In this document: positions 31,299 through 64,000 of the stretch, one piece after another
Position numbering within the stretch: position 1 is the stretch's first letter
How the letters are laid out: each line of letters begins with the position of its first letter
Source of the DNA: Luteibacter aegosomatis
Lineage (GTDB): Bacteria > Pseudomonadota > Gammaproteobacteria > Xanthomonadales > Rhodanobacteraceae
Direction: 5' to 3'
DNA length: 64,000 nt
Assembly: GCF_023078455.1 (NCBI RefSeq)
Contig: NZ_CP095740.1
Location: 2,778,001 to 2,842,000 of the forward strand
The notes under the pieces: model-generated
What the model saw: only the letters and a program-made list of their open reading frames with translations
Databases searched by the model: none
What the model was told of the DNA's origin: nothing
Translations under genes and position numbers: made by a program

Positions 31299-33254
31299 CT
31301 ACTGGAGTTCGCGTACCACGCGGAAGCCCACGCGGGCGCTGCGCACGTCGGCCGAGGCACCCTGCCGATAGGCCGAGCGCACCATATCGGGCGCACTGCC
31401 CCAGGAACCGCCGCGGATCACCCTCCGGCTACACCCCGGGTTTACCCAGGCCTGGGCGTCGCGCGGCGCGCGAATGTAGTTGTCGTGCCAGCAGTCGGCC
31501 GTCCACTGCGAGACGTTGCCGCCCATGTCGTACAGGCCGAAGGCATTGGGGGAGAAACTCATCGCCGGAGCGGGCCCCCAGTAGCCGTCCTTGTACCCGA
31601 CGAAGGCATTGCTCCAGCGACGTCCGGACGACGAGCGGTCGTTGCCGCCGGTGAGGTTTTCCACGCGGCTGGCGGGCGTGCCGTCGCCCCACCAGTAGCG
31701 CGTGGTGGTACCGGCCCGCAACGCATACTCGAACTCGGCCTCGCTCGCGAGGCGATATTTCTTGCCGGTGCGCTGCGAGAGCCAGTCGGCATAGGCCTTG
31801 GCGTCGTTCCACGACACGTTCACCACGGGCAGGCGTTCCTGCCCGGGCCGCCCCAGGTAATCGTCTTCCCAGGTGGCCCCGCCATCGTCGCGCAGGCCGC
31901 CGCTGGCTTCGTCGTACACGCTGCCGCCCTGCAACGATTGCGATTGCGGCACGTAGCCGCTCGCGCGCACGAAATCGCGGAACTGGCCGATGGTGACCGA
32001 GCTGCGCGCCATCGCGAATCCCTTGTCGACCTGCACTTCATGCACGGGCGACTCGTTGGCATCGTGACCGCGCTCGCCGTCGGGCGAGCCCATCAGGAAC
32101 TTGCCGGTGGGTATCACCACCATCGCCGGCGCCTGGCCCGCGCTGTCGACGAAGCGGTCGGCGAACACCTGGCCCGGCTTGTAGCTGGCGTAGAGGCGCG
32201 CGTTGGTGAGGCGTTCGTTGAAGTCGTCGATACCGGCGACGTCGGGGCTGATCTGTTGCGCCTGCGCGGCGAGCTGCTGGGCGAGTTCGATGTTGCCGGC
32301 GTCGAGCGCCGAGCGCGCCTGCGCCAGCACGCCCGAGGCGCTTTGCCGGCGCATGCCCTCGATGCGGCCACGCGTATCCTGCAAGGCCTGGGACTCGGGC
32401 TCGATGACGGCCGCTTCGGCGAGGGCCGCGTCGGCCGATTTGAAATCGTTCTGCGCCACGGCCGCCAACGCCCTGTCGAGCACCACGTGCTGCACCTGGG
32501 CGACACCCTGCACGGCCACGGCGTTATCCGGGTCCAGTTCCAGCACCTGGCGATAGGTGTCCAGCGCACTGTCGCCGCGCGGCTGGGTGGCCTTGTTGTC
32601 GCGCAATTGATCGGCCGCCTTGCCCAACAGCGGTCGCACCTTGTCGAGCACGCCCAACCGCTGTTGCAGCGGTCCGACATCGCCGGCACTGTCGGGAAGC
32701 GACTTGAGGGCGCCCAGCGAATCGCGGGCCGCGTCGGCGTCACCCAGCGCGATGTCCTGTTCGATCTCGGCGACGAGACGCGCGCGTACTTCGCTCATGC
32801 CCTGGGTAGCGCGCTGGCTGTCGGCCTTTTCCTTGAGCGCGGCCATGAAAAGGGAGGAGGCGCTGTCCTTGCCCACCAGGCGGTCGGACGACAGCGCCTT
32901 GTCGGCGCGGTCGAGCAAGGCCGTGAGTTCGGGGCTGTCCGGCGTTTTCTGCGCGGGTAGCTGGATCTCGTCGTTCTTCTCTCGACGACGCGCGGCGATC
33001 ACGGAGGCCGGGGCCAGCACCAGCGGCGGCCCGGCATCCACTTCCGAGGCCATGACGGGCGCGGCGGCCTGCGGACGCTGGTCGAAGCCCATGGGGGTCG
33101 GCTGGCCGCGCAGCGGAGAACGCGGCGTGTTCTGGCTGGGCTGCACGTGCAGCAGCTGCGGGAAAAAGTGATAGAACAAGGCAAAACCGAGCACGGCGAC
33201 ACCCATCGCGCCGCCAATGGCACGCTGTCGGCGGACGGTCTCGGTGTTGGGCAT
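31299..33254 (-). CDS. Membrane-anchored formylglycine-generating-enzyme (SUMF1)-like protein
   Basis: A 651-residue protein in three parts: a short cytoplasmic tail with a membrane helix (about 12-31); a long linker of Ala/Asp-rich helices (about 95-345) that looks like repeat or coiled-coil structure; and a C-terminal FGE-sulfatase domain (about 380-650). The last part shows V-V-I-P-T-G-K-F-L-M-G-S, then P-V-V-N-V-S-W-N-D-A, G-G-N-V-S-Q-W and I-R-G-G-S-W-G-S. The paired copper cysteines of true sulfatase-activating FGE are not evident and no sulfatase is near, so formylglycine formation is unlikely. More likely it is a periplasmic binding or structural module. It is divergent from rnd. Confidence 0.82.
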   Translation of the reverse strand: MPNTETVRRQRAIGGAMGVAVLGFALFYHFFPQLLHVQPSQNTPRSPLRGQPTPMGFDQRPQAAAPVMASEVDAGPPLVLAPASVIAARRREKNDEIQLPAQKTPDSPELTALLDRADKALSSDRLVGKDSASSLFMAALKEKADSQRATQGMSEVRARLVAEIEQDIALGDADAARDSLGALKSLPDSAGDVGPLQQRLGVLDKVRPLLGKAADQLRDNKATQPRGDSALDTYRQVLELDPDNAVAVQGVAQVQHVVLDRALAAVAQNDFKSADAALAEAAVIEPESQALQDTRGRIEGMRRQSASGVLAQARSALDAGNIELAQQLAAQAQQISPDVAGIDDFNERLTNARLYASYKPGQVFADRFVDSAGQAPAMVVIPTGKFLMGSPDGERGHDANESPVHEVQVDKGFAMARSSVTIGQFRDFVRASGYVPQSQSLQGGSVYDEASGGLRDDGGATWEDDYLGRPGQERLPVVNVSWNDAKAYADWLSQRTGKKYRLASEAEFEYALRAGTTTRYWWGDGTPASRVENLTGGNDRSSSGRRWSNAFVGYKDGYWGPAPAMSFSPNAFGLYDMGGNVSQWTADCWHDNYIRAPRDAQAWVNPGCSRRVIRGGSWGSAPDMVRSAYRQGASADVRSARVGFRVVRELQ

Positions 33255-33361
33255 GGTGTGCTGTTCCGCGTGGGCCTGCTATCGTGCGTTGCCACCTTAG
33301 GGAATCGCGCGCTGCAGGGCAACACGCAGACGCGTGTCCCCGATCCCACAAGGACCCATGC

Positions 33362-54554: not shown

Positions 54555-56624
54555 ATGGATTTGATTCACACGACACCTCCGCGCTCCGCGCGCGTGCCCC
54601 GGGCGAGGCTGTGCCTGGCGCTGATATGGGCCTTGCAGGGCTCCGTTGCCCTGGCTTCCACGCCGTCGCCCGATCGCGATGCGCTCATGGCGCAGGTGCG
54701 CGCCGAGCGGGCGCAGGGGCATCGCGTCGATGCCCTGGCCACGTGCCAGGCGATCCTCGACCGCTGGCCCGCCGACCGCGAGGCCCTGTCCATGAACGTC
54801 ACTTTGTTGACGGAACTGGGCGCGACGACGCGCGCCAAGGAACTGGCGGCCCGCCTCGATCCGCCGCAGAGCGTGGAAGACCGCTTCCACCTGCATGCCG
54901 ACGACGTGGGCCACGAGATCCGCTGGGCCGACGGCGAGCCGGCCGACCTTCGCACGCCCTACGCCGAGGCGGATCGCGCCGTGGCCGATGCCCGGGCGCT
55001 GGCCGAGGATGCCGGCCTGCCGAAGGACCTTCGTCGCCGCGAACGGTTCGACCTGCTGGTGGCGCTCGACCAGGCGGGCCAGACGGCGGAAGCCGTGAAG
55101 CGTTACGACGCCACCCGAAAGGACGACGCCCCGTTTCCTCCCTATGTGGAACGCGCGATGGCCGATGCCCTGCTCGCGCAGCGCCGGCCCGCCGAGGCGG
55201 CCGCGCTCTTCGAAGACGCCATCGCCAAGGATCCCGGCCCCTACGACCCTTCCGAACCTGAGCCGCGCATCGGGCTCATGTACGCCTACCTGGAATCCAA
55301 CCAGGTTCCGAAGGCCATCAAGACCATCGACGAACTCACCGCGAAGGAACCCGCGTGGGTTCGCGTTCCCGGTATCCGCCTGCCGCTGGAAAACCCGCGC
55401 AAGGTCGATGCCGACGTGGCCGCCGCGACGCTGCGCGAATACGTCGACATGCCGGCCGCGGCTTACGCCCGGCTTGAGCCGCTCAGCCGGGAAGCCCCGG
55501 CCAATGCGCAGCTTCGCAGCGAACTGGGCATGACCGAACTGGCCCGCGGGTGGCCGCGCCGTGCCGAGGAAGACATCGACATCGCCGGCACGCTCGACGA
55601 ACGCGACGTGGGCATCTACGTCGGACGGTCCGAAGCGGCGCGCGCGCTGCATGACTACGACGAGGTGGATGACGACCTCGCCGTCGCGCACGCGATGGCC
55701 GACCGCAACGGACGCGTCGACCGATCGATGCGTTCATGGGATCGCGAGCGCGGCTGGCAGTTCGACATCACCACCGAGCGCGGCAAGGGCTCCAGCCCCG
55801 ACTTCGGCGACCGTGACGGCGACACCCAGGCGACGGTCGCCAGCCCGTTGATCGACGACCATTGGCGGGTGCTGGCCCTGGCCCGCTATGCCACGGCCGA
55901 CCTGCCCGAAGGCAGCGTGCGCCGCAGCCGGGTGGGCCTGGGGCTGCGCGGTTATGCGCGCGGACTCGAAGCCTATGTCCAGGCGCTGCCCGCGGCCGAC
56001 CGCTACGTGGGCAAGACGGCCATCGAGGCCGGCGTGAACTGGGCGATGAGCGACCACTGGTCGGTCAACGCCGACTTCAGCACGGCCGGCGACGATACCC
56101 CGCTGCGCGCGCAGTACTACGGTATCTCGGCCAAGACGCTCGCCACGGCGGTCACCTACCGCAGCAGCGAGCTGTTCGAGGCGAAGCTCGGCCTCACCCG
56201 CGACCATTTCAGCGACGGCAACCAGCGCACGGGCTGGCTCGCCACCGTCGTGCAGCGCCTGCATACCGCGCCCTACCTCACCCTCGACGGCGGCGTGGAA
56301 GTCGGCGGCTCGATGAATACGCAGACCGAGCGTCCGTACTTCAATCCGCGACGCGACAAGAGCTACGCTCTCACCGGCCGGCTGGAAAACGTGCTCAGCC
56401 AGTTCTACGAACGCACGTGGACGCAGCGCGTCGACGTCGCGGTCGGCCGCTACGACGAGCAAGGCTTTTCCAGCGACTGGATGGCCACCGTACGCTACGG
56501 CCAGATTTTCGCCCCGATGCCGGGCTTCCGCCTCGGCTGGGGCATCGGCTGGCACAACCAACCCTACGATGGCCGCCGCGAACACCGCGTCGTCCTCGAC
56601 CTGACCCTGCACTGGGGAGATTGA
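54555..56624 (+). CDS. pgaA: Outer-membrane exporter of poly-N-acetylglucosamine, PgaA
   Basis: A 689-residue protein. A signal peptide (about 1-35, L-C-L-A-L-I-W-A-L) leads into periplasmic TPR helices (about 40-400; e.g. G-H-R-V-D-A-L-A-T-C-Q-A-I-L) and then a C-terminal beta barrel (about 410-689) with R-V-V-L-D-L-T-L-H-W-G-D at its end. It pulls the polymer through the outer membrane and works with PgaB. It has the standard length for the family. The start lies close after CAGG; upstream is a candidate sigma-54 promoter. Confidence 0.93.
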   Translation: MDLIHTTPPRSARVPRARLCLALIWALQGSVALASTPSPDRDALMAQVRAERAQGHRVDALATCQAILDRWPADREALSMNVTLLTELGATTRAKELAARLDPPQSVEDRFHLHADDVGHEIRWADGEPADLRTPYAEADRAVADARALAEDAGLPKDLRRRERFDLLVALDQAGQTAEAVKRYDATRKDDAPFPPYVERAMADALLAQRRPAEAAALFEDAIAKDPGPYDPSEPEPRIGLMYAYLESNQVPKAIKTIDELTAKEPAWVRVPGIRLPLENPRKVDADVAAATLREYVDMPAAAYARLEPLSREAPANAQLRSELGMTELARGWPRRAEEDIDIAGTLDERDVGIYVGRSEAARALHDYDEVDDDLAVAHAMADRNGRVDRSMRSWDRERGWQFDITTERGKGSSPDFGDRDGDTQATVASPLIDDHWRVLALARYATADLPEGSVRRSRVGLGLRGYARGLEAYVQALPAADRYVGKTAIEAGVNWAMSDHWSVNADFSTAGDDTPLRAQYYGISAKTLATAVTYRSSELFEAKLGLTRDHFSDGNQRTGWLATVVQRLHTAPYLTLDGGVEVGGSMNTQTERPYFNPRRDKSYALTGRLENVLSQFYERTWTQRVDVAVGRYDEQGFSSDWMATVRYGQIFAPMPGFRLGWGIGWHNQPYDGRREHRVVLDLTLHWGD

Positions 56625-56630
56625 CCCGTC

Positions 56631-58505
56631 ATGCGCTCGTTGTTGTCACTGCTGGCCTTGATCGGTCTCGCCCTGCCCGCCTTCGCCCAGCCCGCGGCGC
56701 CCGTGCACGCGCCGCTGATCGTGCTGGCCTACCACGACGTCCGCGACGACGTCGGCCAACAGGCCGACCGCGATCCGGACGCGACCAGCACCGATCACCT
56801 CATCGCCCATTTCGACTGGCTCAAGGGCAACGGCTACAACATCGTGAGCCTCGAGCAGGTGGCTCAGGCCGGTCATGGCGGCGCGCCGCTGCCGCCCAAT
56901 GCGGTGCTGCTCACCTTCGACGACGGCCTGGAGAGCTTCTACACGCGCGTCTATCCCTTGCTGCGCGCCTACCACTACCCCGCCCTCGCCGCGCTGGTGG
57001 GTTCGTGGATGGACATGCCCGCCGGGAAGCGCATGCCCTACAACGGTTCCGACTGCGACCGCTCGTGCTTCCTGAGCTGGGACCAGGTGGCGGAGATGCA
57101 GAAGTCGGGCCTGGTCGAATTCGGTTCGCATTCCTGGGCGCTGCACCAGGGCATGGAAGGCAACCCGCAGGGCAACCTGCAACCGGCCGCCGCCTACGTG
57201 CACTACGACGCGGCCACGAAGCACTACGAAACCGAAGCCGAGTACACCGCGCGCGTACGCGCAGACCTCGCGCACAGCGCCAACGAGATCGCCGAGCATA
57301 CCGGGGTGCATCCGCGCGCCATGGTCTGGCCCTACGGTGCCTACACCCAGGTCGGGCAGAACATCGCCGCCGGCGAAGGCATGACCTTTTCCTTCAGCCT
57401 CGGCGACCGCCTGCCGAAGGTCGGCGGCGGCGGTACCATCCCGCGCCTGCTGGTCAGCGGCAACATCACGGCCAACCGCCTGGGCTGGCTCATGCGCCAT
57501 CTCTCGCGCGTCGACCCCGTGCGCGCCGTGCAGGTGGACCTCGATTACGTCTACGACCCCGATCCCGCCCAGCAGGACCGCAACCTGTCCAAGCTGCTCG
57601 ATCGCATCAAGCGCATGCATCCCAGCCAGGTGTGGCTGCAGGCCTATGCGGACCCGGACGGCGACGGCGTGGCCAACGCGGTGTATTTCCCCAACCGCCA
57701 CCTGCCGATGCGTGCCGACCTCTACTCGCGCGTGTCCTGGCAGTTGCGCACCCGCGCGGGCGTGCGCGTGTACGCGTGGATGCCCGTGATGGCGTTCCGC
57801 TTTCCCGACGGCAAGGATCTCCCTTCGCTCGCGGGCGAGCCCAAGCCCGGCGGCGACCACTTCCGCCTGGCGCCGTACGACCCCAAGGTGCGGCAGATGA
57901 TCGGCGACGTCTACGAAGACCTCGCCATGCATGCCGACGCGGCGGGCATCCTGTTCTCCGACGACGCCTACCTGCGCGACACGGACAACCTCGGCCCCTG
58001 GGCCCACGACACGCCGACGCAGAAGACGCAGGCCCTGATCGCCTTCACCCAGGAGCTGATGACCCGCGTGCATCGCTGGCGTCCACAGGCGCGCAGCGCG
58101 CGCAACCTTTACGCACTGCCGGTGCTGACGCCCAAGGCGGAAGGCTGGACGGCGCAGAACCTGGCGGCGTTCAACGAGGCCTACGACTTCACCGCGCTCA
58201 TGGCGATGCCGCAGCTCGACAAGCAGCGGGATACCCTGCGCTGGTACCGCACGCTGGCCGACGCCGTGGCCGCCACGCCCGATGCGTTCGACCGCACGGT
58301 ATTCGAATTCGCCGCGCAGGACTGGCGTACCAAGGCGCCGATCCCGGCCGCGGCCATGGGCGAGCGAATGCGCGCGGTGCAGGCCCTGGGCGCGCGCCAC
58401 ATCGGTTATTACCCCGACGACTTCCTCAAGGACCGACCGGCGCTGGAGAGCATCCGTCCGTTCATCTCCGCCGAAGACTATCCCTATCCGGAACCCGCGC
58501 GATGA
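56631..58505 (+). CDS. pgaB: Poly-N-acetylglucosamine deacetylase/hydrolase PgaB
   Basis: A 624-residue periplasmic protein. The deacetylase half shows Y-H-D-V-R-D-D (about 33-39), T-F-D-D-G-L-E-S (metal Asp pair near 104) and G-S-H-S-W-A-L-H (about 165-172, metal His pair). The C-terminal GH153 half shows L-D-Y-V-Y-D-P-D, then I-L-F-S-D-D-A-Y-L. The signal peptide ends A-F-A-Q with no lipobox, whereas E. coli PgaB is a lipoprotein. It partly deacetylates the polymer so that it can pass PgaA. It lies 6 bases after pgaA. Confidence 0.94.
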   Translation: MRSLLSLLALIGLALPAFAQPAAPVHAPLIVLAYHDVRDDVGQQADRDPDATSTDHLIAHFDWLKGNGYNIVSLEQVAQAGHGGAPLPPNAVLLTFDDGLESFYTRVYPLLRAYHYPALAALVGSWMDMPAGKRMPYNGSDCDRSCFLSWDQVAEMQKSGLVEFGSHSWALHQGMEGNPQGNLQPAAAYVHYDAATKHYETEAEYTARVRADLAHSANEIAEHTGVHPRAMVWPYGAYTQVGQNIAAGEGMTFSFSLGDRLPKVGGGGTIPRLLVSGNITANRLGWLMRHLSRVDPVRAVQVDLDYVYDPDPAQQDRNLSKLLDRIKRMHPSQVWLQAYADPDGDGVANAVYFPNRHLPMRADLYSRVSWQLRTRAGVRVYAWMPVMAFRFPDGKDLPSLAGEPKPGGDHFRLAPYDPKVRQMIGDVYEDLAMHADAAGILFSDDAYLRDTDNLGPWAHDTPTQKTQALIAFTQELMTRVHRWRPQARSARNLYALPVLTPKAEGWTAQNLAAFNEAYDFTALMAMPQLDKQRDTLRWYRTLADAVAATPDAFDRTVFEFAAQDWRTKAPIPAAAMGERMRAVQALGARHIGYYPDDFLKDRPALESIRPFISAEDYPYPEPAR

Positions 58506-59752
58506 ACGGCGGCATCCTCCACGTACTGCTCGAATTCGCGTTCTTCTATCCGCTGATCATGTCGCTCATCTGGATGAGCGGCGGCGTGATCTACTTCCTG
58601 CGCTGGGAGCGCAACGAGCCCCTGCGCGTGAGGCCCCCGGAGCTGGCCGAATACCCGATGGTCTCGCTGGTGGTGCCGTGCCACAACGAAGGCGAGCAGG
58701 TACGCGAAACCATCGCCCACCTGGCCTCGCAGCAATATCCCCACTTCGAGATCATCGCGATCAACGACGGTTCCACCGACGACACGGGCGCGCAGCTCGA
58801 TCAGTTGATGCAAACGTATCCGCGCCTGCGCGTGATCCACATGTCGAGCAACCAGGGCAAGGCGATGGGCCTGCGCGCCGCCGCGCTGGCGTCCAACGCC
58901 GACTTCCTGGTCTGCGTCGACGGCGACGCCCTGCTCGACGACTACGCCACGCACTGGCTCATCTCGCACATGCTGGAAAGCCCGCGCGTGGCCGCCGTCA
59001 CCGGCAATCCGCGCATCCGCAATCGCTCCACCCTGCTGGGCAAGCTGCAGGTGGGCGAGTTCTCGTCGATCATCGGCCTGATCAAGCGTGCGCAACGCGT
59101 GTATGGGCGTATCTTCACCGTGTCGGGCGTGATCGCCTGTTTCCGCAAGAGCGCCCTGCACGACGTGGGCTACTGGAACACCGACATGGTCACGGAAGAC
59201 ATCGACGTGAGCTGGCGCCTGCAGATGCGCCACTGGGAAATCCGCTACGAACCCAACGCGCTGTGCTGGATCCTCATGCCCGAGACCCTGCGCGGCCTGT
59301 GGAAGCAACGCCTGCGCTGGGCGCAGGGCGGCTCGGAAGTGCTGCTTCGCTATACCGGCAAGCTGCTGAAATGGCGCCAGCGCCGCATGTGGCCCGTGGC
59401 CTTCGAGTATGTGGCGAGCCTGGTGTGGTCGTACACCATGGCGATCATCATCACGCTGTGGCTGCTGGGCCTGTTCGCGCCGCTGCCGCCGTCGCTGTAC
59501 ATCGACACGCTCTTGCCGCAGTGGCACGGCGTCGTGCTGGGCGCGATCTGCCTGTTGCAGTTCCTCATCAGCCTGCTCGTGGACCGCCGCTACGAGACGC
59601 GCATCGGACGCAATTACTACTGGATGATCTGGTATCCGCTGGTGTACTGGCTGCTCAACACGGCGACCTCGATCGTCGCGATGCCCAAGGCGCTGATGAA
59701 GCGCAAGGGCACCCGCGCGGTATGGGTCAGCCCGGACCGGGGACTGCGATGA
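58502..59752 (+). CDS. pgaC: Poly-N-acetylglucosamine synthase PgaC
   Basis: A 416-residue family 2 glycosyltransferase in the inner membrane. The catalytic set is visible: V-V-P-C-H-N-E-G (about 54-61), N-D-G-S-T-D-D, V-D-G-D-A-L-L, V-T-E-D-I-D-V-S and Q-R-L-R-W-A-Q-G. One helix precedes the domain and three to four follow. It polymerises UDP-GlcNAc and pushes the chain across the membrane. In E. coli it is activated by c-di-GMP through PgaC/PgaD. It overlaps pgaB and pgaD by 4 bases each. Confidence 0.96.
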   Translation: MNGGILHVLLEFAFFYPLIMSLIWMSGGVIYFLRWERNEPLRVRPPELAEYPMVSLVVPCHNEGEQVRETIAHLASQQYPHFEIIAINDGSTDDTGAQLDQLMQTYPRLRVIHMSSNQGKAMGLRAAALASNADFLVCVDGDALLDDYATHWLISHMLESPRVAAVTGNPRIRNRSTLLGKLQVGEFSSIIGLIKRAQRVYGRIFTVSGVIACFRKSALHDVGYWNTDMVTEDIDVSWRLQMRHWEIRYEPNALCWILMPETLRGLWKQRLRWAQGGSEVLLRYTGKLLKWRQRRMWPVAFEYVASLVWSYTMAIIITLWLLGLFAPLPPSLYIDTLLPQWHGVVLGAICLLQFLISLLVDRRYETRIGRNYYWMIWYPLVYWLLNTATSIVAMPKALMKRKGTRAVWVSPDRGLR

Positions 59753-60189
59753 AAGCCGAAGCGATCATGATCCAGCGCCCCGAGCGCCAGTCCGCGGCAC
59801 AGAAAGCCGTATTCACCACCGTCACGGTCATCGCCTGGCTGTTCTGGGTGTTTCTCTGGCTGCCCCTGGTCACGCTCGGCGCGTGGGCCTTCGGCCTGCG
59901 CAACGCCTGGGTGCAATTGCACGTGAATCGGCTCGGCGACGGCGGCGACATCAACATCGTGTTCATCTGCGCCCTGGTTTGCGCGCTCGTCTTCACGAGC
60001 TGGTCGGGCTACAACTACCGGCGCTTCGCCGGCAAGCAGAAGCGCCGGGGCAACCTGCCCGTGGGCGTGGCCGAGACGGCCGCCGCCATCGGTGCCACCA
60101 CGGACGATGCCTTACGCATGCAAGGACATCGTCGCGCGGTGGTGAGCGTGGCCCAGGACGGCTTCATGACGGTGGACGACGCTCGCTGA
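59749..60189 (+). CDS. pgaD: PgaD-like accessory subunit of the PNAG synthase
   Basis: A 146-residue protein with two membrane helices (about 21-48 and 70-90), like PgaD, and a cytoplasmic tail with basic residues (R-R-F-A-G-K-Q-K-R-R). PgaD binds PgaC and is needed for c-di-GMP control in E. coli. It starts within the pgaC stop and converges on the egt fusion gene (8-base gap). Identity rests on position and topology. Confidence 0.85.
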   Translation: MKAEAIMIQRPERQSAAQKAVFTTVTVIAWLFWVFLWLPLVTLGAWAFGLRNAWVQLHVNRLGDGGDINIVFICALVCALVFTSWSGYNYRRFAGKQKRRGNLPVGVAETAAAIGATTDDALRMQGHRRAVVSVAQDGFMTVDDAR

Positions 60190-60197
60190 ACCCAGCG

Positions 60198-62366
60198 CTA
60201 CACCGCCTTCAACACGAACACGCCGAACGCGGGATCGTCCGACACCCACTGCCGCTCCACCTCCCAGCCACCCGACCTCGCCAACGCCGCGAACGAGGCC
60301 GGCGTGAACTTGTGCGAGTTCTCGGTATGGATGGTTTCGCCCTCGGCGAAATCGAACACCTGCCCCGCCACCGTCACGCGCTGCGCGCGCTGGCTTGCCA
60401 GGTGCATCTCGATACGCGCCATCTCCGCGTTCCACACCGCGCGATGCTCGAAGGAACCCACGTCGAAGTCGCCGCCGAGTTCGCGGTTGATGCGCACCAG
60501 CATGTTTCGATTGAAGGCAGCCGTGACGCCCTCGGCATCGTCGTACGCCGCGGTCAGGGTCGGCACGTCCTTGACCTGATCCGCACCGACGATGAAGCGC
60601 GCCTCGGCGCCGAGCCGGTGGCGCACCGAGCGAAGCAGTTCCACCGCATCCTCGGCTTCGAAATTGCCGATGGTCGACCCGGGAAAGAAAGCCACCACCG
60701 GGTGCCCTTCCAGGGCGAGGGGCACGTCGATGGAACGGGTGAAGTCGGCCACCACCGGATGCACCGCGAGTGCGGGATAGGCCGACGCCAGCCGTTCGGT
60801 GGCACCGTCCAGCGCATCCACGCTGATGTCCACCGGCACATAGGCGACGATCCCGGGCGCGGCGTCGAGCAGCAGGCGCGTCTTCTCGCTGGCGCCGCTG
60901 CCCAGTTCGAGCAGTACCGCGCCCTCGGGAATGTATGAGGCCAGTTCGGGGGCGATGCCGGCCAGCAAGGCCTTCTCCGTGCGCGTCGGGTAATACTCCG
61001 GCGTCCCGCAGATGGCTTCGAACAACGCCGAGCCCGCGCCGTCGTAGAAATACTTCGGCAACATCGTCTTCGGCGAGGCGGACAGCCCCGCCAGCGTATC
61101 GCGCAGGAACACGTCGCGTTCGTCCTCGCGCTCGCGATGCACGTCGCGCGCCAGGCGCAGCCCGGAGAACATCCAGCGCTGTCCCGGCCGGTAGAAGTTC
61201 CGGTACGACGGACGGCTGTGCCAAGGCGGTGTCACCGATGCGCCGCCACGCAGCACCATCTGGCCGCTCATGAACTTGCCGTTGTACTCACCCACCGCGT
61301 CGTCCGCCGCGCGAAACCCGGGATAGGGCGTATAGGCACTCGCGGTCCACTGCCATGCCACGCCGTCCACCTGTTCCAGCCCTTGGCGCGAACGCACCGC
61401 ATGTTCCCATTCCGCTTCGGTCGGCAGACGCGCACCGGCCCAGCGTGCGTAAGCCTCGGCTTCGTAGTAGCTGATATGGGTGACCGCGGCGTCCGGATCC
61501 ACGGGACGCCAGCCGGCCGGCGTCATATGCGACCAGACGTCGCCGTCGCGATGCCAGTACAGCGGTGCTTCCCAGCCTTCTTCGCGACACTGCGCCCAAC
61601 CGTCGGACAGCCAAAGGTCCGCGCGGCGATAGCCGCCCAGCGCCATGAACGCCATCCACTGCCCGTTGGTCACCAGGCGGTCGGCGATGTCGAAAGGCTC
61701 CAGCCATACCGTGTGGCGAGGGCCTTCGTTATCGAACGAGAACGGCTCGTCCTGTGCGCCGATGCGCACCGGACCGCCGCCGATGCGATGAAAGCGCGCG
61801 ACGCGTCCCGGCGAAGGCAGCGCCCATCGCGAATCGAACGCCGGCTTCAGCGGCGACTGGGCGAAGAGATGCTGCACGTCCATCACCAGCAATTCCTGAT
61901 GCTGTTCCTCATGGGCGAGGCCCAGGCGCAGCAATGCCTCGATGTCCGCCTCCAGGGGATGGGAAAGCAACTCGCCCATGTACCGGTCGACGTGGCGGCG
62001 ATAGTCGAACACGCGTTCCACCGACGGCCGCGTGAGCAGGCCACGCATGGGCCTGGGATGGCGTGGCCCCACCGCTTCGTAGTACGAATTGAAGAGAAAC
62101 CCGAAGGTCTCGTCGAACACCCGATAACCCGGCAGGTTCGGCCCGAGCAGGAAGGTTTCGAAGAACCACGTGGTATGCGCGAGGTGCCACTTCGCCGGAC
62201 TGGCGTCCGGCATGGACTGCACCACCATATCTTCCGCATCGAGGGTCGCCACCAGGGCTTCGGTGCGGCCGCGCACGGCGGCATAGCGCCCTGCCGCCGT
62301 CGAGGGCACGCAAGCGGCGGAGGCGGCGACGCGTGCCGCCGGTTCGATATCGACAATGGCTTGCAT
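60198..62366 (-). CDS. EgtB-EgtD fusion: ergothioneine synthase plus histidine methyltransferase
   Basis: One 722-residue protein joins two ergothioneine enzymes. The first half is EgtB: a DinB-like domain (about 25-165) with H-L-A-H (61-64) and the iron motif H-E-E-Q-H-Q-E (152-158), then the FGE-type sulfoxide-synthase domain (about 190-408) with G-G-A-S-V-T-P-P-W-H. The second half (about 415-722) is EgtD: L-P-K-Y-F-Y-D-G-A-G-S, then E-L-G-S-G-A-S-E-K-T (SAM site), G-S-T-I-G-N and I-H-T-E-N-S with the histidine-binding Glu682 and Ser684. EgtD makes hercynine, EgtB adds sulfur. The order is opposite to fungal Egt1. The ATG at 62366 gives this length; upstream is the DUF427 gene. No egtA, egtC or egtE is nearby. 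Confidence 0.93.
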   Translation of the reverse strand: MQAIVDIEPAARVAASAACVPSTAAGRYAAVRGRTEALVATLDAEDMVVQSMPDASPAKWHLAHTTWFFETFLLGPNLPGYRVFDETFGFLFNSYYEAVGPRHPRPMRGLLTRPSVERVFDYRRHVDRYMGELLSHPLEADIEALLRLGLAHEEQHQELLVMDVQHLFAQSPLKPAFDSRWALPSPGRVARFHRIGGGPVRIGAQDEPFSFDNEGPRHTVWLEPFDIADRLVTNGQWMAFMALGGYRRADLWLSDGWAQCREEGWEAPLYWHRDGDVWSHMTPAGWRPVDPDAAVTHISYYEAEAYARWAGARLPTEAEWEHAVRSRQGLEQVDGVAWQWTASAYTPYPGFRAADDAVGEYNGKFMSGQMVLRGGASVTPPWHSRPSYRNFYRPGQRWMFSGLRLARDVHREREDERDVFLRDTLAGLSASPKTMLPKYFYDGAGSALFEAICGTPEYYPTRTEKALLAGIAPELASYIPEGAVLLELGSGASEKTRLLLDAAPGIVAYVPVDISVDALDGATERLASAYPALAVHPVVADFTRSIDVPLALEGHPVVAFFPGSTIGNFEAEDAVELLRSVRHRLGAEARFIVGADQVKDVPTLTAAYDDAEGVTAAFNRNMLVRINRELGGDFDVGSFEHRAVWNAEMARIEMHLASQRAQRVTVAGQVFDFAEGETIHTENSHKFTPASFAALARSGGWEVERQWVSDDPAFGVFVLKAV

Positions 62367-62388: not shown

Positions 62389-62766
62389 TCAGTCCGGAAG
62401 GTGTTCGATCGTGACCCGCTCGGGATAGAACGCCAGATGATCGCGTATGGCGGCCACCGCGTCGTGCGGGGCCTCATAGCTCCACACCGCGTTGATCGCC
62501 CGTTCCGAGTGGCCCGGCAGGCTGAAGTACGAGGCCTCGCCCTTATAAGGGCACCACGTGTGATGCGCCGTCTTGCTCAGGGCAGCCATGTCGGCATCTT
62601 CGCGGGGCACATAGAATACGGGTGGATAGCTGGCCTCTTTCAGGCGCAAGGCATGGCGCGAGTCGACGACCACGCGATCGCCGTCGCGGACGATCACGCG
62701 TCCGCCGGCCGGCGTGATGTCGATGGGATGGTCCGGTCCGGGAATGCGTACGGGGCGGGACGTCAT
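62389..62766 (-). CDS. DUF427-domain protein
   Basis: A 125-residue protein with the family blocks Y-P-P-V-F-Y-V-P (about 51-58) and C-P-Y-K-G-E-A-S-Y-F (about 74-83) and no signal peptide. AAGGAG lies 7 bases before the ATG at 62766, which decides this start. It stops 22 bases before the EgtB-EgtD gene on the same strand, so the two probably share one message. The function of DUF427 is unknown; an accessory part in thiol or redox metabolism is only a guess from this position. Confidence 0.83.
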   Translation of the reverse strand: MTSRPVRIPGPDHPIDITPAGGRVIVRDGDRVVVDSRHALRLKEASYPPVFYVPREDADMAALSKTAHHTWCPYKGEASYFSLPGHSERAINAVWSYEAPHDAVAAIRDHLAFYPERVTIEHLPD

Positions 62767-63045
62767 GGTGATCTCCTTCGCGACGGAAGCTTTCATCCTG
62801 TGGCCCCGGCCGGGGGATTCCAAGCCACCTGCATCGCAAAGCTGCCCGTACCCGCCCGCACGAATGGCAGGATAAGCCTCGTTTTGTCCGATGCCGACAC
62901 TCGAAGGCGCCCCCGGCGGCGCCTGCCGGGTGACCATCGACCCGGTTCATTTCGCCGGCTCGCGCCGTAATATGGCGCACATGATCTTTCACCGTCGCCG
63001 CCTCGCGGCCGCTCCCTCCCCCGGCACGGATCGCCTGCGCATCCC

Positions 63046-64000
63046 ATGAAGGCGTTGCTGTTAGCGATCACCGTCGTCATCACGCACGTCATGCTCCTGG
63101 CCACCGGTGCGCGTCACGGGATGGCGGTGTCCTACGCATGCTATTTCGTCATGGGCAGCCTGGCCACCGGGAGCACGTGGGTTGCCTGGCGGCGCCAGGA
63201 CGGCACGCGCGACCCTCGATGGTGGCTGCTCGTCGCGAGCATCGTCCTGTGGATGGTGGCCATGGCCCTGGCGGCGCGGCAGAGCTACGTGATGGACAAC
63301 GACAATCCCACGCCCGGCGACAGCATGTTCGCCTACGTGCTCTACGTGCTGCCCGTGCTGCTGGCGATATCGTCGGCGCCGGTGGCCGTGCGCAAGCGCT
63401 GGGCGCTCGCCATCGACCTTGTCCTCGCCCTCCTGCTGGGCGTGCTCTTCTACGCACACACCTTTTCCATCGTCTCGCTGCACGGTGCGGCCGACGTGGC
63501 GGGCGCGCTCCAGGTCGCCTGGGTGCTCGACGCGGAGAACGTCTGCCTGGCACTGGCGGCCCTGTTGCGCTTCGTGGCGACCGACAGCCCGGACGACCAT
63601 CGCTTCTTCCGCGCGGTGGCCGCCTTCTTCGTCACCTATGCCGTCGCGGGATTCACGTACAACCACTACATCGCCCTGGGCGGGCATCCCGCGTTCGGCG
63701 ATACGCCTTGGGACGCCCTGCTCGACCTGCCGTTCGCCGTGCTCGTCGCCGTGCTCGCCATGGAGCCCACGCGCCGTCACTGGCATCCGCCGGTATACCT
63801 CGTGCGTTTCGTACAGGGCGCGAGCCCCACGTTTCTCGCGATGAGCGTTCTCACCTTCGGGCTGCTGGTGATGGCCGAGCATCCCGAACTGGGCATCACG
63901 GCGGCCATCGCCGCGGTGATGGGCATCGGCCTGCGCGGCACGCTCGCCCAGGTGGACCTCGTCGACGAGGAACACCGCCAATGGCGCCTGCGCGACGAAC
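63046..64000 (+). CDS. Polytopic membrane protein, N-terminal part (right edge of window)
   Basis: At least 318 residues are visible and the frame runs off the edge. Eight or nine hydrophobic helices (about 3-21, 28-47, 60-78, 95-115, 120-143, 165-180, 190-210, 235-252, 265-300) are followed by a hydrophilic stretch V-D-E-E-H-R-Q-W-R-L-R-D-E, a typical hinge into a cytoplasmic output domain. A GGDEF domain is common after such a sensor and would suit the neighbouring c-di-GMP-linked pga operon. This is inference; no catalytic motif lies in the window. It is divergent from the DUF427/egt unit. Confidence 0.7.
   Translation, partial: MKALLLAITVVITHVMLLATGARHGMAVSYACYFVMGSLATGSTWVAWRRQDGTRDPRWWLLVASIVLWMVAMALAARQSYVMDNDNPTPGDSMFAYVLYVLPVLLAISSAPVAVRKRWALAIDLVLALLLGVLFYAHTFSIVSLHGAADVAGALQVAWVLDAENVCLALAALLRFVATDSPDDHRFFRAVAAFFVTYAVAGFTYNHYIALGGHPAFGDTPWDALLDLPFAVLVAVLAMEPTRRHWHPPVYLVRFVQGASPTFLAMSVLTFGLLVMAEHPELGITAAIAAVMGIGLRGTLAQVDLVDEEHRQWRLRDE

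Follow-up and report, generated by a model that had tools for sequence, protein, structure and literature searches.

The egtBD locus

The window analysed here is a 64,000-nucleotide stretch of the Luteibacter aegosomatis genome. It contains a fused gene, egtBD, and a DUF427 gene directly upstream on the same strand, as follows.

60198..62366, minus strand: egtBD, an EgtB-EgtD fusion of 722 aa, open from the ATG at 62366
61140..62303, minus strand: EgtB half, residues 22-409, DinB_2-like plus FGE-like, a predicted type II sulfoxide synthase (TIGR03440; alignment to 6o6l)
61116..61139, minus strand: short linker, about residues 410-417 (gap between the EgtB and EgtD matches)
60207..61115, minus strand: EgtD half, residues 418-720 (TIGR03438; alignment to 4uy6)
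62389..62766, minus strand: DUF427 gene (PF04248, 105.7 bits, cut-off 22.1), about 125 aa from the ATG at 62766, with AAGGAG upstream

The mechanical open reading frame of egtBD runs 37 codons further upstream, to 62477, and the ATG at 62366 is preceded by a ribosome-binding-like AAGGGAG (62378-62372). The DUF427 gene ends 22 bp upstream of egtBD, and a Shine-Dalgarno-like sequence stands before each start. A search for a sigma-70-like promoter found none, and terminator-like sites are in no clear excess over shuffled sequence. Three Pfam domains are found in the fusion, each above its cut-off: DinB_2 (28-158), FGE-sulfatase (194-326) and Methyltransf_33 (422-720).

The initial annotation described one intact 722-residue frame, and named a frame error at the junction as one way in which its reading could fail. 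Of 23 same-genus genomes, 19 carry the frame without interruption; therefore, a sequencing frame error is ruled out as the source of the fusion. The gene is missing from the other four genomes, one of which (G007) is 80% complete.

Convergent with egtBD lies a pgaABCD-like operon for poly-N-acetylglucosamine (54600-60189, plus strand), which encodes a PgaA barrel, a PgaB deacetylase/GHL13 protein, a PgaC glycosyltransferase and PgaD. A membrane-protein-like open frame (62971-63999, plus strand), with no Pfam match, continues past the window's end. Further, a separate 659-aa frame at 31302-33278 (minus strand) carries a full C-terminal FGE-sulfatase domain and a weak TPR match.

Family assignment of the two halves

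Both halves of the fusion pass the cut-offs of NCBIfam equivalog models. In particular, the EgtB half scores 533.9 bits against TIGR03440 (cut-off 360) and the EgtD half scores 376.2 bits against TIGR03438 (cut-off 290.9), and their nearest solved relatives are Chloracidobacterium thermophilum EgtB (6o6l, 418 bits) and Mycobacterium smegmatis EgtD (4uy6, 211 bits). The synthase match covers residues 22-409 and the methyltransferase match residues 418-720, in agreement with the annotated order of an N-terminal EgtB and a C-terminal EgtD. The EasF model is not reached (143.8 bits, cut-off 205.55).

The order of synthase and then methyltransferase is also that of OvoA, and the chain finds a weak match to the OvoA N-terminal model TIGR04344 (equivalog-domain, 79.3 bits) and a match to the SenA model NF041186 (equivalog, 342.3 bits), as would be expected of an OvoA-like (ovothiol) enzyme or a selenoneine synthase. 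However, these scores miss cut-offs of 400 and 420 bits while those of EgtB and EgtD are passed; OvoA or SenA identity is ruled out on this basis, and we consider an ovothiol or selenoneine enzyme highly improbable. The OvoA methyltransferase belongs to another family, and the profile searches place the C-terminal half with EgtD, as first proposed.

The C. thermophilum type II EgtB (6o6l, 8qf6, 6qki) has a domain layout, three-histidine iron site, tyrosine pair, RxxR and hercynine residues in common with the fusion, but it is a stand-alone enzyme, whereas the fusion's EgtB is joined to EgtD and has a shorter loop after EWE; this short loop is also present in many unfused enzymes. Likewise, M. 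smegmatis EgtD (4uy6, 4pim) shares its family and substrate residues with the EgtD half, but stands alone. Fungal Egt1 has the methyltransferase first, an order that the fusion does not follow. Egt1 (type III) resembles the fusion in carrying a methyltransferase and a sulfoxide synthase on one chain, and the excerpted sources give cysteine as its donor. In Methylobacterium, a tandem egtB-egtD ('egtBD', PMC4621440, in part) has the gene order of the fusion, but as two genes rather than one chain, and its deletion abolished ergothioneine. Overall, by its profile matches and domain layout, the fusion joins on one chain an EgtB and an EgtD that are both ordinary.

Conservation of active-site residues

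Residue conservation was assessed on an alignment of 118 rows, comprising 44 fused and 74 unfused enzymes. Three motifs are located as follows.

62079..62084, minus strand: Tyr95-Tyr96, the aligned counterpart of the catalytic Tyr93-Tyr94 in type II EgtB, in 118 of 118 rows
61893..61913, minus strand: HX3HXE, residues 152-158 (H152-E-E-Q-H156-Q-E158), from the alignment to C. thermophilum
60315..60326, minus strand: TENS, residues 681-684 (T681-E-N-S684), with E in 118 of 118 rows and S in 117 of 118

A review (PMC10903977, in part) describes the EgtB iron as bound by three histidines and assigns roles to the catalytic Tyr93-Tyr94 in type II EgtB. In the alignment, H152, H156 and Q155 correspond to C. 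thermophilum H153, H157 and Q156 and are invariant across all 118 rows, and H64 is the counterpart of C. thermophilum His62. We take the iron ligands to be H64 (from WHxxH), H152 and H156, and the final E of HX3HXE not to be a ligand. The initial annotation's claim of intact motifs stands, as H152-E158 and T681-S684 are present where it placed them, with one amendment: the third iron ligand would be H64 rather than the final glutamate.

Another review (PMC9103826, in part) numbers the hercynine- and donor-binding residues of C. thermophilum EgtB, whose counterparts in the fusion by alignment are Q155, N390, F391, R105 and R108. None of the 118 rows departs from the tyrosine pair, the iron histidines, Q155, N390, F391 or R108, and R105 is found in 117 of them. 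The type II EgtB residue set (three iron histidines, Tyr-Tyr, two donor-binding arginines and the hercynine Gln, Asn and Phe) is complete in the fusion. In the EgtD half, Y458, N568, Y608, M654, E682 and S684 are kept. The last five presumably correspond to the histidine-binding N166, Y206, M252, E282 and S284 of M. smegmatis EgtD, so that the E and S of TENS would be E282 and S284.

A short FGE loop was considered as a mark of the fusion and is ruled out by loop lengths, which are 11-19 residues in 35 of 74 unfused rows and 35-37 residues in 7 of the 20 fused rows outside the main clade.

Sulfur donor and predicted reactions

The initial annotation noted that egtA, egtC and egtE are missing nearby, and none lies beside the fusion. 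Profile searches of the whole genome give a best EgtC match of 29.2 bits (cut-off 218.65), an EgtA-like ligase of 169 bits (cut-off 370.8) and a best EgtE match of 88.6 bits (cut-off 400), the last being a SufS-type desulfurase; each of the three models also passed in 0 of 14 control genomes, and no positive control was seen. Moreover, EgtE is over its cut-off in 0 of 14 further fusion-bearing genomes. The five-gene actinobacterial egtABCDE pathway is accordingly not found in this genome, with EgtA, EgtC and EgtE all below their cut-offs.

The annotation had left the sulfur donor open. The conserved type II residues, and the lack of any EgtC or EgtE match above its cut-off in the genome, narrow the choice. 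Cysteine is the donor of type II enzymes in the accessible portions of two papers (PMC11993508, PMC12071650). From the type II pattern together with the EgtC and EgtE results, cysteine is likely the donor of the fusion, with a predicted lyase completing the pathway.

The fusion is very probably a bifunctional enzyme of ergothioneine biosynthesis. The EgtD half would consume three SAM to trimethylate histidine at its amino group, forming hercynine. Next, the type II EgtB half, with a three-histidine Fe(II) and O2, would link cysteine to the C2 position of hercynine's imidazole ring, yielding hercynyl-cysteine sulfoxide. Ergothioneine would be freed by a C-S lyase whose gene lies elsewhere and which is probably a general PLP enzyme. 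This explanation draws on domain identity, intact residues, conservation, phylogeny and gene context; we infer the activities, the cysteine donor, the lyase, operon transcription and horizontal gain. The direct passage of hercynine from one half to the other, raised in the initial annotation, would be conjecture.

Distribution of the fusion

The initial annotation stated that EgtB and EgtD are separate in most bacteria. The fusion is indeed the less frequent arrangement, but its architecture is not exceptional. EgtD (E<=1e-30) occurs in 103 genomes of an even sample of 398 Pseudomonadota, and the fusion lies in one frame in 9 of these 103, a denominator that is irrespective of egtB presence. 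Two long EgtD frames (G321 and G281) were considered as extra fusions and are ruled out as overlapping separate frames. As for the architecture, both PF10017 and PF03781 are present in all of the at least 120 homologs (617-898 aa) among the matches listed from at least 8000 candidates scored. These listed homologs include proteins of Luteibacter, Dyella, Panacagrimonas, Asticcacaulis, Silvimonas, Herbaspirillum and Pseudomonas, with several of the best named ones from Luteibacter and Dyella. Among the matches listed in 119 relatives, no uninterrupted fusion was found outside the genus.

The EgtB-EgtD fusion architecture is therefore common in databases, where many fused homologs are annotated just as EgtB or 'dimethylhistidine N-methyltransferase'. 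No description of a bacterial EgtB-EgtD fusion was found in the literature searched, which excluded subscription papers and does not imply absence from print. One 76% identical fusion (P0028) is filed under 'Bacillus sp. NP157', an odd host for an otherwise proteobacterial clade, and is perhaps a mislabelled record.

A second egtB-egtD pair in the genome

The genome also contains an unfused egtB-egtD pair at G000:C1 3269495-3271665 (L004 7496-9666, minus strand), which adjoins mfd and rlmKL-like genes and passes both equivalog cut-offs. Given this further complete pair, the fusion may be redundant, or it may have shifted to a different substrate or product. The resident EgtB and EgtD are 53% and 44% identical to the fusion, respectively, and the resident EgtD carries Thr at the position of a Met in M. 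smegmatis EgtD, which we take to be Met252. Two complete sets this divergent in one genome, together with that substitution, are what a division of labour would produce, in which the fused or the resident system makes a different product or takes another amino acid or donor, giving two related compounds per genome. Against it, the sole difference among the EgtB positions compared is at C. thermophilum A420 (Gln in the fusion, Ala in the resident enzyme), Ser or Thr occupies the EgtD position in 27 of 74 unfused EgtDs, and the SenA scores of both systems are below the cut-off; we consider a division of labour unlikely.

The fusion is not always accompanied by a second system. Most fusion-bearing genomes of other genera (7 of the 8 checked) have it as their sole strong EgtB/EgtD match; the match in one genome (G372) appears as two pieces of one frame. 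The eighth, a 7.8-Mb genome (G433, fusion at C4:448853-450976) has a further EgtD-like protein (40%) and a 469-aa EgtB-like frame.

Origins of the fusion

In the EgtB tree, the window's EgtB falls within a 24-row, all-fused clade (SH-aLRT 100) that includes its own genus, Dyella, Panacagrimonas, Asticcacaulis, Silvimonas, Herbaspirillum, Pseudomonas and Cupriavidus, and so spans distant Proteobacteria. The resident pair clusters instead with five other unfused pairs of its family (SH-aLRT 100). The EgtD tree also unites the same 24 fused rows, but on a branch with almost no support (5); it supports a 12-row all-fused set around the window at 97 and the resident clade at 100.

Within the genus, the window's pgaC/pgaD flanks are matched in 17 of 18 other same-genus fusion loci (tblastx counts; L016 is the exception). 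Given these matching flanks, a single entry of the DUF427-egtBD unit within the genus, followed by loss in some species, is probable. The unit beside pgaABCD was probably acquired by an ancestor within the genus and added to an older, unfused egtB-egtD pair.

The distribution of the fused state requires four changes on the EgtB tree and three on the EgtD tree, at least two of which are forced. For example, the Stutzerimonas enzyme L066 is fused, whereas its sister G410 is unfused (EgtB tree, 99). On a subset of 47 rows, the AU test rejects the best tree that unites all fused rows (p 8e-35; p 0.0024 without L066); the group tested was named after a tree was seen. In unfused loci where both genes were found, egtB precedes egtD. 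Because of this, the order described at first as 'reversed' with respect to fungal Egt1 is that expected from loss of a stop codon. On these trees, the fusion has more than one origin, each with the order egtB-egtD that is usual for the separate genes.

These repeated origins bear on whether joining the two enzymes brings a special benefit. Fusion may instead be neutral: adjacent egtB and egtD would have lost the intervening stop codon, their joint product would act just as the separate enzymes do, and the second copy would contribute nothing but dosage. The recurrence of same-order fusions, as in Stutzerimonas beside its unfused sister, the rejection of a single origin for all fused rows and the commonness of adjacent unfused egtB-egtD pairs all point this way, and we regard neutral fusion as somewhat probable. 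In the other direction, the large fused clade runs without a break through distant genera, which we take as more than drift would leave. Neutrality is a rival to a special benefit of fusion and is compatible with the enzyme's identity. The bifunctional enzyme would be a compact two-step catalyst for hercynyl-cysteine sulfoxide that evolved more than once, of use both in asking what difference it makes to link EgtD to EgtB and as a one-gene part in ergothioneine production.

A DUF427 gene recurs beside egt genes

The initial annotation mentions neither the second egtB-egtD pair nor the DUF427 gene at 62389-62766. PF04248 has no match in the genome other than this gene. Of the 19 same-genus genomes with the fusion, 16 carry DUF427 directly upstream of it; the exceptions have DUF427 elsewhere (G004) or are without it (G017 and G022). 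Speaking against a tight link, in 8 fusion-bearing genomes outside the genus DUF427 is absent from five and located elsewhere in three. One of the genomes outside the genus (G433) carries three DUF427 genes, one about 10 kb from its fusion.

Across 80 named egt loci with 6 kb flanks, DUF427 is the family found most often as a neighbour (19 loci, 18 of them on the egt strand), spanning Proteobacteria, Bacteroidota and one Dadabacteria contig. By domain positions, it lies within about 220 bp of egt genes in 10 of the 80 loci: three fused ones (Pseudomonas, Cupriavidus), five from Bacteroidota, one Dadabacteria contig and one gammaproteobacterial MAG. In Bradyrhizobium-type loci the linkage is loose: the distance is 1.8-2.5 kb in three of them, and in L061 an opposed frame intervenes. 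Moreover, one database protein (P0108) carries EgtB, EgtD and DUF427 on a single chain.

Co-occurrence extends to whole genomes. Among 119 relatives, with EgtB/EgtD presence called at our own cut of about E 1e-40, DUF427 is found in 47 of 82 genomes with EgtB/EgtD versus 0 of 37 without, counts that are uncorrected for shared ancestry or genome size. DUF427 is present in 95 of the 398 Pseudomonadota genomes: 53 have DUF427 and EgtD, 42 DUF427 alone, 50 EgtD alone and 253 neither, an odds ratio of 6.4 that is likewise uncorrected for ancestry and genome size. The two genes are at most 6 kb apart in 16 of the 53 genomes with both, of which 10 belong to a single family (f58) and the other six to four families.

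A DUF427 tree of 81 rows, which has few columns and weak resolution, places egt-adjacent members at scattered points on both main branches, and adjacency requires 12 changes, at least four of them forced. An ergothioneine-only DUF427 family is ruled out by this scatter and by the 42 of 95 DUF427-bearing genomes without EgtD (E<=1e-30). The DUF427-egt link is a recurrent one, but the family also occurs outside ergothioneine makers.

The near-invariant positions of DUF427 are Y, P, CPxKG, W and Y; within CPxKG, the Cys and the Lys are each present in 36 of 37 egt-adjacent rows. In the portion of PMC4287342 consulted, DUF427 shares a beta-tent fold with the sulfoxide reductase MsrB but contains no zinc, does not resemble MsrB significantly in sequence and has no function assigned to it. 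No paper treating ergothioneine and DUF427 together was found in the literature searched, exclusive of subscription papers. That DUF427 is an overlooked component of ergothioneine metabolism is a tentative proposal, which we hold to be possible rather than probable. We would guess that its Tyr/Trp and Cys residues could engage the trimethylammonium group of hercynine or ergothioneine and react at the sulfur, for instance to reduce the sulfenic acid that the lyase leaves or to recycle oxidised ergothioneine. A role as a general EgtE substitute is weakened by a class-V aminotransferase near egtB, egtD and DUF427 in a Flavobacteriaceae locus (L094). If the link holds, it would offer a clue to the function of a widespread, uncharacterised family and possibly a missing step in ergothioneine handling.

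Other recurring neighbours

A gene recurs near egtB, egtD and DUF427 in the Flavobacteriaceae loci L094, L096, L098, L101, L102 and L109; in the first of these it is the aminotransferase, a possible EgtE. The third commonest egt neighbour family is a KGG-repeat small protein, presumably of a stress type, which occurs in 10 of the 80 loci, nine of them fused (L051-L055, L057, L058, L068, L078 and L114). In Sphingopyxis, the general stress regulon includes egtB and egtD, according to an excerpt of PMC7083833.
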